A stretch of DNA of 43,347 nucleotides from Candidatus Hydrogenedentota bacterium (GTDB lineage: Bacteria; Hydrogenedentota; Hydrogenedentia; Hydrogenedentales; JAGMZX01): NCBI GenBank assembly GCA_029556545.1, contig JAKQEQ010000153.1:1-43347 (forward strand), written 5' to 3'. Position 1 is the first letter of the stretch. Every line of letters begins with the position of its first letter. Positions 11,281 through 41,120 of this stretch are shown here, in pieces. The position numbers were made by a program, and so were the translations under genes. The notes under the pieces were generated by a model. The model was not told where the DNA came from. It did no database searches and saw nothing but the letters and a program-made list of their open reading frames with translations.

Positions 11281-12900
11281 TCACCAGTACGTATAGAAGT
11301 ACGATTCGATCAGCCAGCACTGAAACGCGAGAAAGGCGAGTGTGGCGACGAGAGGGGTTACGCTCTTCGCGTTGCGGCCCCATGCTTCGATCAGGTGCGC
11401 CGCGGGCAGCGCGAGAAACGGAAACACGTACAACGCCGACCGCTCCCCCTCACCGCGCGCCAGATACAGGAGATTCAGCGCCGCCAGCGTGAGCAGGCAC
11501 ACGAGGAACAGCCCCTTGCGCGCGGGGTCCGGCCGCAGCAACCGCTTCACGAACAGCACCGACACCGGAATCCCCGCGAAGAATAGCCAGGACAAAGGAT
11601 TGACTATGCGCCAGGTCCACGCGGGCCATCGCGGTGTCATCAGATCGAGGTGGCGCTGGTCCGCGTCGAATTGCGCCTTGCACGCCTGGAAGCACGCGAT
11701 CATGTCGAAGCCGGACCAGAGGCGCACCGCGGCGTGAATCGCGATGAACGCCAGCAGCGTGGCCGCCGCCGTCGTCACGACCGCCGTGGGCGCGCGCCGC
11801 AGCTTCCACAGGCCGACCAGGGCGAAATAGGCCCCGATCCCGACGAGGGAAAAGGATAGGAGGGACATGACGCCGTAGCCCAGCCCGGCGGCAAGCGCAT
11901 AGGCGACCGCGCCGCGTTGAATCGCCCGCGTGAACAGGAACAGGGTCAGGAGCGTGAACGGCGCGAACAGGATGTCCGCGCTGGTGGCGGTGAACAGGAC
12001 GATGGCGGGGATGACGCTGTACAGGAGGCAGCAGGTAAGGGCCGTTCGCTTGTCGGTGAGTTCGCGCGTCCACCAATACAGCGGGGCTATCGCGAGCGCC
12101 CCGAAGGCGACGGTCGCCAGCGACAGCGCCATAGGTTCTCGCCCGACCACGTAAGAGAATATCCAGAGGAGCGCGATAGGGCCGGGCGGATGGACGCGCG
12201 CGTGCATGGATAGGTGGGGACGCAGCCGAAGATAGCGCCCGAAGAGTTCCTGGATCGACCCTCCCGCGCCGATGTCGCCGACGTACTCGTAGGTATGGCG
12301 GGCGTACGCTTGGGCGATGCCCGCGGGACCGCCGCGAATCATGGCGACCGCGCATGCGAACAACGCCGCGAACGCGATGAGTCCCGCCAGGAACCAGGCG
12401 ACGCTCCGGGGCGAGGGATCTTGATCAAACCAACGTATCCACGCGAGAACACGCAGACAGACGGCCAGCCCGCCGCAGAACACGAGAAACGCGAGCAGAT
12501 GCCACCGCATCAAGCGCGCATATTCCGCGGCAACTGCGCGCAAGGGTTGGCTTTGCGCGACCGCGTCTTGGTACAATGCAGATGCGGCCAGCGCGGCAAG
12601 CAGCGCGCACGCGGCGACGGCCGCCGCCGTGCGCCGGTTGCTCCGGCGCACATAGGGACGCCCCAACAAGAGATACGCCGCCCCGATCAAGGCGGCCATG
12701 GCCAAGGGAACCGCGGCGGTCCGAAAGGCGGGGGCCGGTATCGCGTAAAAGGGAGTCACGTTGCCGTGGATTCCCTCGAGGCCGACAAGCCATAGCACCA
12801 ACACCCCGACCAGGCTCCAGATCAGGGTGCGCGTGTAGAGGCCGGTAAGCCGGGCGCCCAACGGCGCGGGGGCGCATCCGCCGGATGTGTCCAGCGACAT
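11281..12900 (-). CDS. Multi-spanning GT-C type glycosyltransferase (GT39/PMT-like)
   Basis: This 539-residue protein has about 12-13 hydrophobic segments. The HARVHPPGPIALLWIF stretch near residue 230 is the HPPG motif seen in bacterial GT-C enzymes related to PMT/ArnT, and an acidic loop precedes it (EYVGDIGAGGSIQELFG). Such enzymes take a sugar from polyprenyl phosphate and place it on a lipid, glycan or protein outside the inner membrane. The GT2 gene at 5.8 kb could supply the donor. Members of this group are very divergent and acceptors cannot be predicted. The start is the ATG before GTP-rich sequence MSLDTSGG; no strong ribosome binding site is visible. Confidence 0.75.
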   Translation of the reverse strand: MSLDTSGGCAPAPLGARLTGLYTRTLIWSLVGVLVLWLVGLEGIHGNVTPFYAIPAPAFRTAAVPLAMAALIGAAYLLLGRPYVRRSNRRTAAAVAACALLAALAASALYQDAVAQSQPLRAVAAEYARLMRWHLLAFLVFCGGLAVCLRVLAWIRWFDQDPSPRSVAWFLAGLIAFAALFACAVAMIRGGPAGIAQAYARHTYEYVGDIGAGGSIQELFGRYLRLRPHLSMHARVHPPGPIALLWIFSYVVGREPMALSLATVAFGALAIAPLYWWTRELTDKRTALTCCLLYSVIPAIVLFTATSADILFAPFTLLTLFLFTRAIQRGAVAYALAAGLGYGVMSLLSFSLVGIGAYFALVGLWKLRRAPTAVVTTAAATLLAFIAIHAAVRLWSGFDMIACFQACKAQFDADQRHLDLMTPRWPAWTWRIVNPLSWLFFAGIPVSVLFVKRLLRPDPARKGLFLVCLLTLAALNLLYLARGEGERSALYVFPFLALPAAHLIEAWGRNAKSVTPLVATLAFLAFQCWLIESYFYTYW

Positions 12901-19557: not shown

Positions 19558-19587
19558 TTGCGGCGCGTGCCGGGAATCCGGTACGAT
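19558..19587 (+). promoter_or_regulatory. Candidate promoter for the tiny peptide pair
   Basis: TTGCGG and TACGAT are 18 bases apart. The transcript would start near 19594, with a leader of about 70 bases that contains a small GTTTTC/GAAAAC hairpin before the AGGTGGAG ribosome binding site. Confidence 0.35.
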
Positions 19588-19665
19588 GCGCGTCGCGGGG
19601 GTAAACGAGTTTTCGGGGTGAAAACGCGATCGAGCACAGGATCGTGAAATAGGTGGAGAACCAGT

Positions 19666-19824
19666 ATGTTGGGTTGGAGCGGATTTGTCACGTGGTTGGA
19701 TGCATGGTGGACGAACGTGGTGGACGACCTCGTGACGCGGGGAACGGACCTTATCTCAGGTCTGCCGCTGTTCCAGGTTATTCAGTTCATCCTTGCGCTG
19801 TTCGGCGTAAGGGTTGACCTGTAA
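19666..19824 (+). CDS. Tiny Trp-rich hydrophobic peptide (52 aa), first of a pair
   Basis: The frame starts MLGWSGFVTWLDAWWTNV and ends ILALFGVRVDL. Four Trp lie in the first 15 residues, followed by an acidic stretch and a hydrophobic segment (LPLFQVIQFILALFGV) long enough to sit in a membrane. AGGTGGAG lies seven bases before the ATG, which is strong evidence for translation. There is no cleavable signal. It does not match any family I know. Size and composition fit small membrane proteins, type I toxin peptides, or leaderless bacteriocins; none of these is demonstrated. Confidence 0.55.
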   Translation: MLGWSGFVTWLDAWWTNVVDDLVTRGTDLISGLPLFQVIQFILALFGVRVDL

Positions 19825-19858
19825 GCGTCTGGGACGGCTTCTCAAGGAGTGCGACATC

Positions 19859-20008
19859 ATGGACTGCGGGGATTTCTGGGCCGATGTGACGGACCAGGTC
19901 TGGACGATGGCGATCGGTTACTGGCTGAAGGCTTTCACCCAGTGGATCACGGCGATGTTCAACTGCCTGTTCGGCCTGAACGAGTGCGGCCACAATATCG
20001 TTCCGTAG
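19859..20008 (+). CDS. Tiny Trp/Cys-containing hydrophobic peptide (49 aa), second of a pair
   Basis: The frame starts MDCGDFWADVTDQVWTMA and ends LNECGHNIVP. AAGGAG lies nine bases before the ATG. The peptide begins 34 bases after the stop of the first one. The two share a loose layout: Trp-rich amphipathic start, then a hydrophobic segment ending in LFGV or LFGL (here WITAMFNCLFGL). Three Cys are present here and none in the first peptide. The pair may have arisen by duplication, but the similarity is weak. No known family is recognised. Confidence 0.55.
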   Translation: MDCGDFWADVTDQVWTMAIGYWLKAFTQWITAMFNCLFGLNECGHNIVP

Positions 20009-20057
20009 CCGCCGGGCCGAGCGCTAAGATTACGCTGTCCGAACGCGACACAAGGCA

Positions 20058-20087
20058 TTGAGGGGGGCCGCGAGCGTCTGTTACACT
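20058..20087 (+). promoter_or_regulatory. Candidate extended -10 promoter for hisS
   Basis: TTGAGG, then 18 bases, then TACACT preceded by TGT, giving a TGn extended -10. The transcript would start near 20094, about 44 bases before the hisS ATG. Confidence 0.5.
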
Positions 20088-20137
20088 CGCGCTTTCCGTG
20101 CATATTCCTGAGTCAAGCAGGCCGGGTGTGTTCCGTC

Positions 20138-21604
20138 ATGGGTGAAAAGAAGCAATTGGTCGAGCCGCGCACGCTGAAGGGGTTCCAGGACCTGCTCCCC
20201 GAGCAGGTCATTCCGAGGCAGCGGCTGCTGCGCGTCATCGAGTCCGTCTTCGAGCGCTACGGCTACGCGCCGCTCGAAACGCCGGCCCTCGAGTATCTCG
20301 ATGCGCTCTTGGGCACGGGCGGCGAAGGGACGAACAAGGAACTGTTTCGCCTGGAAAGCCCGGAGAACGAGCCTATCGCCCTGCGCTTCGATCTGACCGT
20401 GCCGTTCGCGCGGCTCCTTGCGCAATACCCCGACCGCCTCAAGCCGCCCTTCCGCCGCTACGCCATCGGGCCGGTCTGGCGGGCCGACAAGCCGGGCGTG
20501 GGCCGCTTCCGCCAGTTCGTGCAGTGCGACATCGACGTGGCGGGCGCGCCGACGGTCGCGGCGGACGGGGAGATCGTGGCGGTCATGGCGGATGTCATGC
20601 GCGCGCTGGGCGTTACGCGGTTTGTCGCACTCATCAACAATCGCAAGGTCATCGACGCGCTGCTCGACGGCTGTGGCGTCACGGAGGAATCCGTGCAGAA
20701 GCACGTGCTGCGCGTCATCGACAAACTCGGCAAAGTCGGCGCGGACAACGTGCGGCTCGAATTGGGGCCGGGGCGCATCGACGAGTCGGGCGACCCCATC
20801 GCCGGCGTCAAGTTGGATGACGCCACGATCGACCGCATCCTCGGCTTTATCGCGATCAAGGGCGACACCCGGGCGGCCATCGTCGCCGCCCTCGAACAGG
20901 CGCTGCCGGAGAGCAAGGCGGCGCGCGAGGCCGTCGCCGAGATGCGCGAACTCGCGGAGGCGCTCGAGGCCCTCGAGGTGGACGAGGCGCACGCGCGGTT
21001 CGACCCGAGCCTGGCCCGCGGCCTGGACTATTACACTGGCCCCATCTTCGAGATGACACTGCCCGACGCGCCGCAGTTCGGCTCGGTCATGGGCGGCGGC
21101 CGCTACGACGGTCTCGTCGCGCGGTTTATGGACCGCCCCATCCCTTGCACGGGCATGTCGGTCGGCGTGGACCGACTCGTAGCGGCGCTGCTGCACCTGG
21201 GTTGCCTTGCCCCGGTCAAGACGCCGGTCCAGGCGCTCGTGGTGACGATGGGCAACGTGCCGAAAACCGAGACGCTGAAACTGGCGGCGGAGTTGCGGGG
21301 GGCGGGGCTGTGCGTCGAGACTTTTTTCGCGTCGCGCAAGAAGATGCAGATGGGCAATCAACTCTCGCACGCGGACCACTACGGCATTCCCGTCGCGGTG
21401 ATTCTGGGTGAAGACGAATTAAGGAACGGCGTCGTCGCGGTAAAGGACCTGCGGGCTGGCAAGGCCGAACGCGAGCACATCGAAGACCGCGAAGCCTATC
21501 GCGAGGCAGGCAAGACGGGACAAGTGACCGTGCCGCGCAGCGAGGCGGCCGCCGCCATCCGGGCCATCGTCGGGGGGAACTCGGGCACCGCGTCTGGCGA
21601 ATAG
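20138..21604 (+). CDS. hisS: Histidyl-tRNA synthetase
   Basis: A 488-residue class II synthetase that charges tRNA-His. Motifs: LKGFQDLLPEQ at the start, the motif 2 region RRYAIGPVWRADKPGVGRFRQFVQCDIDV, the histidine-binding ARGLDYYTGPIFE, and motif 3 GMSVGVDRL. A C-terminal anticodon-binding domain follows (from VQALVVTMGNVP). The length is longer than the roughly 425 residues of Escherichia coli HisS; an expanded mid-region and a C-terminal extension past the anticodon domain account for it. The ATG at 20138 was chosen; a GTG four codons earlier is possible. Neither has a strong ribosome binding site. Confidence 0.94.
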   Translation: MGEKKQLVEPRTLKGFQDLLPEQVIPRQRLLRVIESVFERYGYAPLETPALEYLDALLGTGGEGTNKELFRLESPENEPIALRFDLTVPFARLLAQYPDRLKPPFRRYAIGPVWRADKPGVGRFRQFVQCDIDVAGAPTVAADGEIVAVMADVMRALGVTRFVALINNRKVIDALLDGCGVTEESVQKHVLRVIDKLGKVGADNVRLELGPGRIDESGDPIAGVKLDDATIDRILGFIAIKGDTRAAIVAALEQALPESKAAREAVAEMRELAEALEALEVDEAHARFDPSLARGLDYYTGPIFEMTLPDAPQFGSVMGGGRYDGLVARFMDRPIPCTGMSVGVDRLVAALLHLGCLAPVKTPVQALVVTMGNVPKTETLKLAAELRGAGLCVETFFASRKKMQMGNQLSHADHYGIPVAVILGEDELRNGVVAVKDLRAGKAEREHIEDREAYREAGKTGQVTVPRSEAAAAIRAIVGGNSGTASGE

Positions 21605-25326: not shown

Positions 25327-25698
25327 CTAATTATCCGGGGCATCCTCCAGGGATTTTATGAGCGCGTTAAGTAAACGCCCGACGTCCTGGGCGAGTTCCC
25401 ACACCGGTAACGTGTCTTCACGTTGAGCAAAGCCCAGTCGGGTCGCGATGGTCAGATGCGTCTCCATTTCGGCCTTCGAGCCACGGGCGATGGAGAGGTG
25501 GCGCAGGTAGTCGCCGCGATGCACGCGCGCATAGCCCTCCGCGATATTCGCGGGAACGGATACGGCGGCGCGTTGTAGTTGACTCGCGAGCCCGTATCGC
25601 TCCTCCGGCGGAAACCGCCGCGACAGATCATATACGGCAACGACCAAATCCATGGCTTTCCGCCAGACCGTAAGGTCTCGATAGGTCTTGAGCGCCAT
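25327..25698 (-). CDS. Four-helix-bundle protein (23S rRNA intervening-sequence family)
   Basis: The 123-residue protein starts MALKTYRDLTVWRKAMDLVV and contains LASQLQRAAVSVPANIAEGYAR, the signature of the four-helix-bundle family first found in intervening sequences of 23S rRNA and related in fold to Avd proteins of diversity-generating retroelements. Members occur as stand-alone chromosomal genes in many environmental genomes and may bind nucleic acid; the function is unknown. TTTAGGG repeats lie on both sides, and two decayed partial copies follow at 25796 and 25903. There is no strong ribosome binding site. Confidence 0.9.
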   Translation of the reverse strand: MALKTYRDLTVWRKAMDLVVAVYDLSRRFPPEERYGLASQLQRAAVSVPANIAEGYARVHRGDYLRHLSIARGSKAEMETHLTIATRLGFAQREDTLPVWELAQDVGRLLNALIKSLEDAPDN

Positions 25699-25709
25699 GA
25701 CGCCTTTGC

Positions 25710-25737
25710 TTTACGGTTTAGGGTTTAGGGTTTAGGA
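25710..25737 (+). repeat. TTTAGGG repeat, copy B (four units, two mutated)
   Basis: Units TTTACGG, TTTAGGG, TTTAGGG, TTTAGGA lie just upstream (in the minus direction) of the four-helix-bundle gene. The junction to the gene side reads TAAAGCAAA on the minus strand, the same as at copy A beside cimA. Confidence 0.93.
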
Positions 25738-25795
25738 GGTAAGAGATCAGGGTTCAGGGCTCGTTGTAGAAGCCCGCTCCGCCAGTTCCCGGTGT

Positions 25796-25862
25796 GTTCC
25801 TCCAGAGATTTCACGAGTCCGTTCAGTAGGCGCCCGACTTTCTGGGCAAGCTCACAAACGAG
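25796..25862 (-). pseudogene. Decayed partial copy 1 of the four-helix-bundle gene (C-terminal part)
   Basis: The stretch TCCTCCAGAGATTTCACGAG and the following CAGTAGGCGCCCGACTTTCT align with TCCTCCAGGGATTTTATGAG and the AGTAAACGCCCGACGTCCT near the 3' end of the intact gene at 25346-25400. The upstream flank GGGTTC..AGGGCTCGT also matches the flank next to repeat copy A. It is too short and mutated to be translated. Confidence 0.8.
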
Positions 25863-25902
25863 CCGCGCCTCTTGTTTTCCAGTTAACATTGTGATGCTCT
25901 CA

Positions 25903-26030
25903 CGACTTCATGACTCCATTCAATAAGGGCGCAATTTCCTGGGGCCAGTCCCCCGACCGGTAACGTGTGTTCGCGTTGGGCGGTACCCAGCCGGGCGACA
26001 ATTGTCAGGCATGCCTCCATTTTCAGCCAA
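25903..26030 (-). pseudogene. Decayed partial copy 2 of the four-helix-bundle gene
   Basis: Contains ACCGGTAACGTGTGTTCGCG, which aligns with ACCGGTAACGTGTCTTCACG in the intact gene (from about 25402), and flanking matches covering roughly the last 45 codons of the gene. Substitutions and small gaps break the frame. Together with copy 1 this fills most of the 373-bp gap between the intact gene and apgM; I see no other gene in that gap. Confidence 0.8.
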
Positions 26031-40973: not shown

Positions 40974-41120
40974 TCACGGGTCGGCGGTGAACAAGGCGAT
41001 CAGCAACGCCACCGGCAGCGCCAGCGTCGCCAGAATCGTAAACATCAGGCTGAGCAGCCAACCGAAGAACACGACCGACGCCGTCCCCATCCCTTTTTCG
41101 TCGTCCTCGAAGAAGCCCAT
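40974..41120 (-). CDS. Small membrane protein (48 aa)
   Basis: The frame reads MGFFEDDEKGMGTASVVFF and then a long hydrophobic stretch (GWLLSLMFTILATLALPVALLIALF). An acidic N-terminus precedes one long or two short membrane segments. AGGAG lies 11 bases before this ATG; an ATG seven codons earlier is possible. It precedes the ABC ATPase gene by 250 bases on the same strand in reverse order, i.e. it is downstream of the NagB-type gene. Function is unknown. Confidence 0.55.
   Translation of the reverse strand: MGFFEDDEKGMGTASVVFFGWLLSLMFTILATLALPVALLIALFTADP

Follow-up and report, generated by a model that had tools for sequence, protein, structure and literature searches.

Two small genes under purifying selection upstream of hisS in a Hydrogenedentota genus, encoding putative membrane-active peptides

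The P1/P2 gene pair and its surroundings

Two short open reading frames, P1 and P2, are arranged in tandem within the window (i.e., the whole 43,347-nt stretch of Candidatus Hydrogenedentota DNA analyzed here), with an intergenic gap of 34 bp and with the histidyl-tRNA synthetase gene hisS located downstream (Table 1). These coordinates agree with the first-pass annotation, in which two frames of 52 and 49 codons, placed 34 bp apart and equipped with two ribosome-binding sites, had been distinguished. When the window was searched for ATG frames of 35-70 codons with a preceding SD, at least three Trp residues, hydrophobic character and little Arg, P1 and P2 were the sole matches on both strands of the 43 kb, and there were none in 100 random first-order Markov windows of the same dinucleotide make-up.

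The neighboring genes encode, among others, a Gfo/Idh oxidoreductase, hisS, GH20, PilZ, SmpB, and TolB; neither an exporter gene nor an immunity gene was found in the neighborhood of the pair, and the search for terminator-like sites and Rfam elements was negative. The counterpart of the candidate promoter of the pair in G001, the sister genome used for comparison, is TTGCAG-18-TACCAT, located 105 bp upstream of the P1 start, and its architecture is alike. The pattern TTGNRG-18-TACNNT has only three occurrences on both strands of the 43 kb (the pair, hisS, and one site elsewhere), and elements similar to TTGA-N18-TACACT are located 5' of hisS in several further families of the phylum. As a promoter-like sequence belonging to hisS follows P2, and another precedes the pair, P1 and P2 probably constitute a separate transcription unit, associated with hisS by position.

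Table 1. Coordinates of P1, P2, and related features (window positions, unless another contig or locus is given).
Feature	Position	Strand	Remarks
P1	19666..19824	+	52 aa/codons; kept in sister genome G001
P2	19859..20008	+	49 aa/codons; kept in sister genome G001
P1 ribosome-binding site, AGGTGGAG	19651..19658	+	ends 7 nt 5' of ATG; GGAGA core also in G001
P2 ribosome-binding site, AAGGAG	19844..19849	+	9 nt 5' of ATG; G001 copy identical
Candidate promoter of the pair, TTGCGG-18-TACGAT	19558..19587	+	78 bp 5' of P1 start; pattern match only
Candidate hisS promoter, TTGAGG-18-TACACT	20058..20087	+	3' of P2 stop; kept in G001; pattern match
hisS, histidyl-tRNA synthetase	20138..21604	+	Pfam tRNA-synt_His, 6e-50
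P3, 34 aa, aromatic acidic, MYSLEGVFDAIYYFIADLLDLVLWFLYNLPYWAF	G000:C12, L067 11802-11906	-	71% identical in G001
P4, 38 aa, acidic amphipathic, MNVDVSNFF...ILPF	G000:C9:97595-97711 (L118 17595-17711)	+	kept in G001 beside pheA
P5, 36 aa, one helix	G000:C9:111524-111634 (L119 11524-11634)	+	72% identical in G001
Two paralogous tandem pairs, 38 + 41 codons, amphipathic	G049 L144 5116-5418; L145 7179-7481	-; +	gap 60 bp

Conservation and selection

G001 was the sole other genome of the genus compared, and the conservation of P1 and P2 described here rests on two genomes. Its copies of the two genes (C9:67934-67779 and 67741-67595) have the same order, the same lengths, and exactly the same 34-bp gap, and they are again placed upstream of hisS. 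The DNA common to the window and the G001 contig C9 is confined to positions 19655-21544, i.e., the pair plus hisS, which is the sole neighbor kept beside the pair. The 5' flank is occupied by the Gfo/Idh oxidoreductase gene in the window; in G001, a divergent TetR regulator and a fused methylmalonyl-CoA-mutase-type gene are found there instead. The pair stays in place while both flanks, hisS excepted, differ between the two genomes.

The encoded proteins of the window and G001 share 62% (P1) and 57% (P2) identity. The dN/dS ratios (NG86) were about 0.32 for P1 (dN 0.27, dS 0.84) and about 0.30 for P2 (dN 0.25, dS 0.84), and the excess of synonymous changes was significant in Fisher tests (P = 0.001 and P = 0.002, respectively; combined P = 8e-6). 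When the observed substitutions were dealt at random over the genes, a stop codon appeared in about 70% of trials, and equally few amino-acid changes without a stop were obtained in only 0.02% (P1) and 0.5% (P2) of them. The remaining forward frames over P1 and P2 are interrupted by stops in at least one of the two genomes. Because of the dN/dS values of about 0.3 and the synonymous excess, P1 and P2 are, judged by sequence comparison, translated protein genes kept by purifying selection. For the adjacent hisS, dN/dS was 0.11 (dS 1.08), which means that the protein evolution of the pair, relative to synonymous change, is approximately three times as fast as that of hisS.

The first-pass annotation had proposed looking for both frames in tandem in related genomes and comparing synonymous with non-synonymous change, and it had named missing homologs, frameshifts, or stops in sister genomes as counter-evidence; the first comparison yielded the equally long and equally spaced G001 frames, both of them open, and the second yielded the selection signal given above. 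That P1 and P2 are chance open frames and not genes could be argued from the failure to find homologs outside the genus; however, the frame conservation in G001, the purifying selection, and the lack of comparable frames in randomized windows all speak against it. We consider its probability negligible and, in light of the selection test and the frame conservation, this reading refuted.

Properties and predicted structure of the peptides

P1 and P2 are rich in aromatic residues, including Trp, and their net charges (-3 and -4) are the same in both species. P1 consists of a Trp-rich amphipathic N-terminal half, a GLP/SLP break, and a hydrophobic C-terminal half (LPLFQVIQFILALFG), in which 14 of the 15 residues of LPLFQVI(Q/E)FILALFG are conserved in G001; in P2 the C-terminal IVP is conserved. 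The best 19-residue Kyte-Doolittle values are 1.87-1.95 for P1 (1.95 at residues 30-48 of the window protein) and 0.94-1.34 for P2. The amphipathicity of the peptides exceeds that of composition-matched shuffles (P 0.008-0.03), and the same applies to the maximal helical moment of P2 (0.57-0.61; P ~0.01). AlphaFold2, with an input of two sequences only, predicted helices at residues 4-31 and 35-45 of P1 (mean pLDDT 75) and one long helix, residues 3-43, in P2 (mean pLDDT 73). A conserved helix face was not found in either peptide (P = 0.35 and 0.41), and no signal peptide was apparent when the sequences were read by eye.

The hydropathy, the shuffles, and the AlphaFold2 models, i.e., predicted helicity together with amphipathicity, support the initial description of both peptides as membrane-like. 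The accompanying description of a Trp-rich amphipathic start and a hydrophobic end fits P1, whereas the end of P2 is only moderately hydrophobic. Since its hydropathy is moderate in comparison with that of P1, P2 resembles an amphipathic helix of the membrane interface more than a classical transmembrane one.

Distribution of homologs and local similarity of P2 to CysT

In line with the initial impression that no known family is represented, searches of Pfam, NCBIfam, PHROGs, and PDB sequences assigned P1 and P2 to no family. No relatives were found by tblastn against phages and plasmids or by pattern-seeded scans of GTDB contigs and IMG/VR, a method that finds close relatives only. The phylum set comprised 68 genomes (one class and one order represented), and in the 66 genomes other than the two carrying the pair there were no homologs, only chance-level or CysT matches. 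Moreover, among 28 other genomes inspected, the pair was absent upstream of hisS in the approximately 20 in which the hisS start was located by motif finding. In these searches, P1 and P2 are restricted to the genus, which may really mean that they are family-restricted, because the family of the window is represented by these two genomes only. Nor was homology detected between the two peptides (profile comparison: E = 0.099, 11 columns), and therefore the LFGV/LFGL ending cannot be taken as a sign of their paralogy.

Residues 1-40 of P2 (window 19859-19978) resemble a segment of the CysT genes L015 of G001 and L016 of G000, the genome to which the window belongs (MxWxDFWxxVTD...LIAALINAxFG). 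In per-genome searches, this similarity had E = 7.6e-5 in G001 and 8.9e-4 in G000, and its score was 21.9 bits, whereas none of 300 column shuffles exceeded 9.9; the match of P2 to TIGR00969 (E = 0.028) was far below the cut-off of the model. We do not consider homology to be proven by this similarity.

Other small peptides of the genus and the phylum

A scan of 1.09 Mb of G000 for SD-preceded small hydrophobic frames indicated further candidates, three of which, P3, P4, and P5, are conserved in G001. Relatives of P3 were not found elsewhere in the phylum. Those of P4 occur in genus g35, which belongs to family f10, with E-values as low as 8.6e-6, and several are arranged in tandem; those of P5, which are shorter ('DLTDPGT.WFW..LPIS'), occur in family f4. 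In G049, a genome of family f10, an ammonium transporter gene (Amt, amtB) immediately precedes each of the two paralogous tandem pairs.

The tandem peptides of family f10 (L130, L131, and L134) and P4 share several features with P1 and P2: they are SD-preceded, amphipathic, Phe/Leu-rich, and 37-41 codons long, and one peptide of this type ends in ALFG at its C-terminus, as P1 does. However, their homology to P1 and P2 is not demonstrable. In hhalign comparisons, P2-Q1 gave E 0.013 (3% probability) and P1-Q2 gave E 0.028 (2%), as against 0.019 and 0.18 for control pairings, and the HMM scores of P1 and P2 against the Q1 and Q2 peptides of f10 did not exceed 4.6 bits. Descent from a common stock, attractive by eye, is not supported, as the control pairings score alike. 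Because P2-Q1 and P1-Q2 do not outscore the control pairing, the two groups are, at the level of sequence comparison, alike in kind and not in descent.

Several other elements were observed in the course of these scans. Close to P3 (L067 about 11675-11785, minus strand), there are two short repeats (~70 and 34-38 bp) that recur at dozens of sites in G000; copies of the shorter one also occur in G008 and G009. On the minus strand of the window, a 48-codon SD-preceded frame at 40974-41120, beside an ABC transporter gene pair, encodes a strongly hydrophobic helix (MGFFEDDEKGMGTASVVFFGW...); a DNA-level match to this frame was not found in G001. The minus-strand region 25327-26020 contains an intact short ORF (25327-25698; MALKTYRDLTVWRKAMDLV...), which by eye resembles the four-helix-bundle/S23 family, followed by shorter fragments that look like a decayed second copy.

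Comparison with known systems and alternative explanations

In the first-pass annotation, four options were listed for the pair: a two-component small membrane complex, toxin-like peptides, a leaderless two-peptide bacteriocin, and envelope stress peptides. The arrangement of two tandem, leaderless, Trp-containing peptides is shared with leaderless bacteriocins. However, the tabulated two- and multi-peptide representatives of that group have net charges of +4 to +7 and come with secretion and immunity genes (PMC6131525), whereas P1 and P2 are acidic (-3/-4), lack an immunity gene or ABC exporter gene in their vicinity, and occupy a fixed site beside hisS in both species rather than a mobile cluster. 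The charge and the missing exporter and immunity genes disfavor the bacteriocin option, and a role as this or another antibacterial toxin pair seems very unlikely. For toxin-like membrane peptides of type I, silenced by antisense RNA, we would give an equally low probability. RNA antisense to the P1 leader would be expected from a minus-strand promoter-like site (19691-19663), but this site sits in coding and start sequence, both of its hexamers are degraded in the G001 alignment, and no Rfam match was found; in addition, a type I toxin normally consists of one peptide. Beta-type phenol-soluble modulins, in turn, are small acidic amphipathic leaderless peptides encoded by tandem genes, and P1 and P2 agree with them in all these features, which would fit surfactant-like peptides that leave the cell without a signal peptide and serve to spread or disperse cells. 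In contrast to the modulins, P1 and P2 are Trp-rich and lack an exporter in their neighborhood, P1 is more hydrophobic than a plain surfactant helix and contains a break, and family models of this kind gave no Pfam or NCBIfam match at E up to 1; such a secreted function is improbable. The light-harvesting alpha/beta polypeptides (pufBA) are also encoded by tandem genes of about 50 codons and are Trp-rich helical membrane peptides, but P1 and P2 lack the conserved His for bacteriochlorophyll and a Pfam match.

The position upstream of hisS in both genomes could point to leader or attenuator peptides controlling this gene. Against this, P1 has no His codon, the lone His of P2 is at a different place in G001, hisS has its own promoter-like element downstream of P2, no T-box or other Rfam element was found, and hisS genes of other families lack the pair. 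The likelihood of such control is extremely small and, considering the His codons and the promoter-like element, it can be excluded in practice. A more credible, though still unlikely, explanation is that P1 and P2 are small partners tuning a large membrane protein encoded elsewhere (e.g., a permease), in the manner of accessory subunits such as AcrZ with AcrB or KdpF with Kdp. It would be consistent with the local resemblance of P2 to part of the CysT sulfate permease, namely the stretch that precedes the second permease helix and extends into it, and with the two tandem pairs of family f10 directly behind ammonium transporter genes. However, no transporter gene is adjacent to the pair, the CysT similarity is short and not seen for P1, and the f10 pairs are not demonstrable homologs of P1 and P2.

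Proposed two-component membrane assembly

With a confidence somewhat short of even, we favor the explanation that P1 and P2 are acidic helical peptides acting together at the membrane of the producer as a two-component complex, which is the best of the four options listed initially. As the peptides are acidic and exporter and immunity genes are absent nearby, the cell's own envelope is the more likely target. Both peptides would be made together, without a cleaved leader. P1, predicted to form a helix, a GLP break, and a hydrophobic helix, may insert into the membrane, whereas P2 would lie at the membrane interface as a single long helix. They would bind side by side, with Trp at the lipid interface, and assemble into a small hetero-oligomer altering the membrane, either as a small channel or as a complex that shapes or stabilizes it; they might also act as a transporter partner. 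Because P1 and P2 have no detectable mutual homology, their common assembly is deduced from co-occurrence only. Counted against the complex are the not clearly transmembrane character of P2 and the presence of the pair in only two species. Other tandem pairs of amphipathic peptides exist in the phylum, so paired small helices do recur there.

The closest parallel is provided by PorA and PorH of Corynebacterium, proteins of about 43 and 57 aa that lack a presequence (only the initiator Met precedes them) and form hetero-oligomeric channels of the envelope (cell wall) (PMC3792995). As P1 and P2, they are encoded by two adjacent small genes of similar size, leaderless in our case as judged by eye. 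In contrast, P1, P2, and their G001 forms match no NCBIfam or Pfam model, including that of PorA; they belong to another phylum, and no mycolic-acid membrane is known for their host. The resemblance would concern the way of working, without a sequence relationship or family membership.

Significance

The pair is a real, selected, genus-specific two-gene unit, and its products are, by inference, small membrane-active peptides. Proteins of fewer than 60 residues are routinely missed by annotation, especially in phyla known mostly from assembled metagenomes, and P1 and P2 exemplify such proteins: they are demonstrably selected, yet have no relative in any library searched. As they are joined by P3-P5 and by the tandem pairs of another family, the phylum appears to hold a hidden repertoire of small membrane peptides. 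It is also conceivable, although we consider it quite unlikely, that the phylum has a broad undescribed class of tandem acidic amphipathic micro-peptides, working pairwise as envelope channels or transporter partners, in which P1 and P2 would form one rapidly evolving branch specific to the genus, and the tandem pairs downstream of ammonium transporter genes another. The amtB-linked pairs offer a concrete functional handle on the small-peptide repertoire of this phylum.
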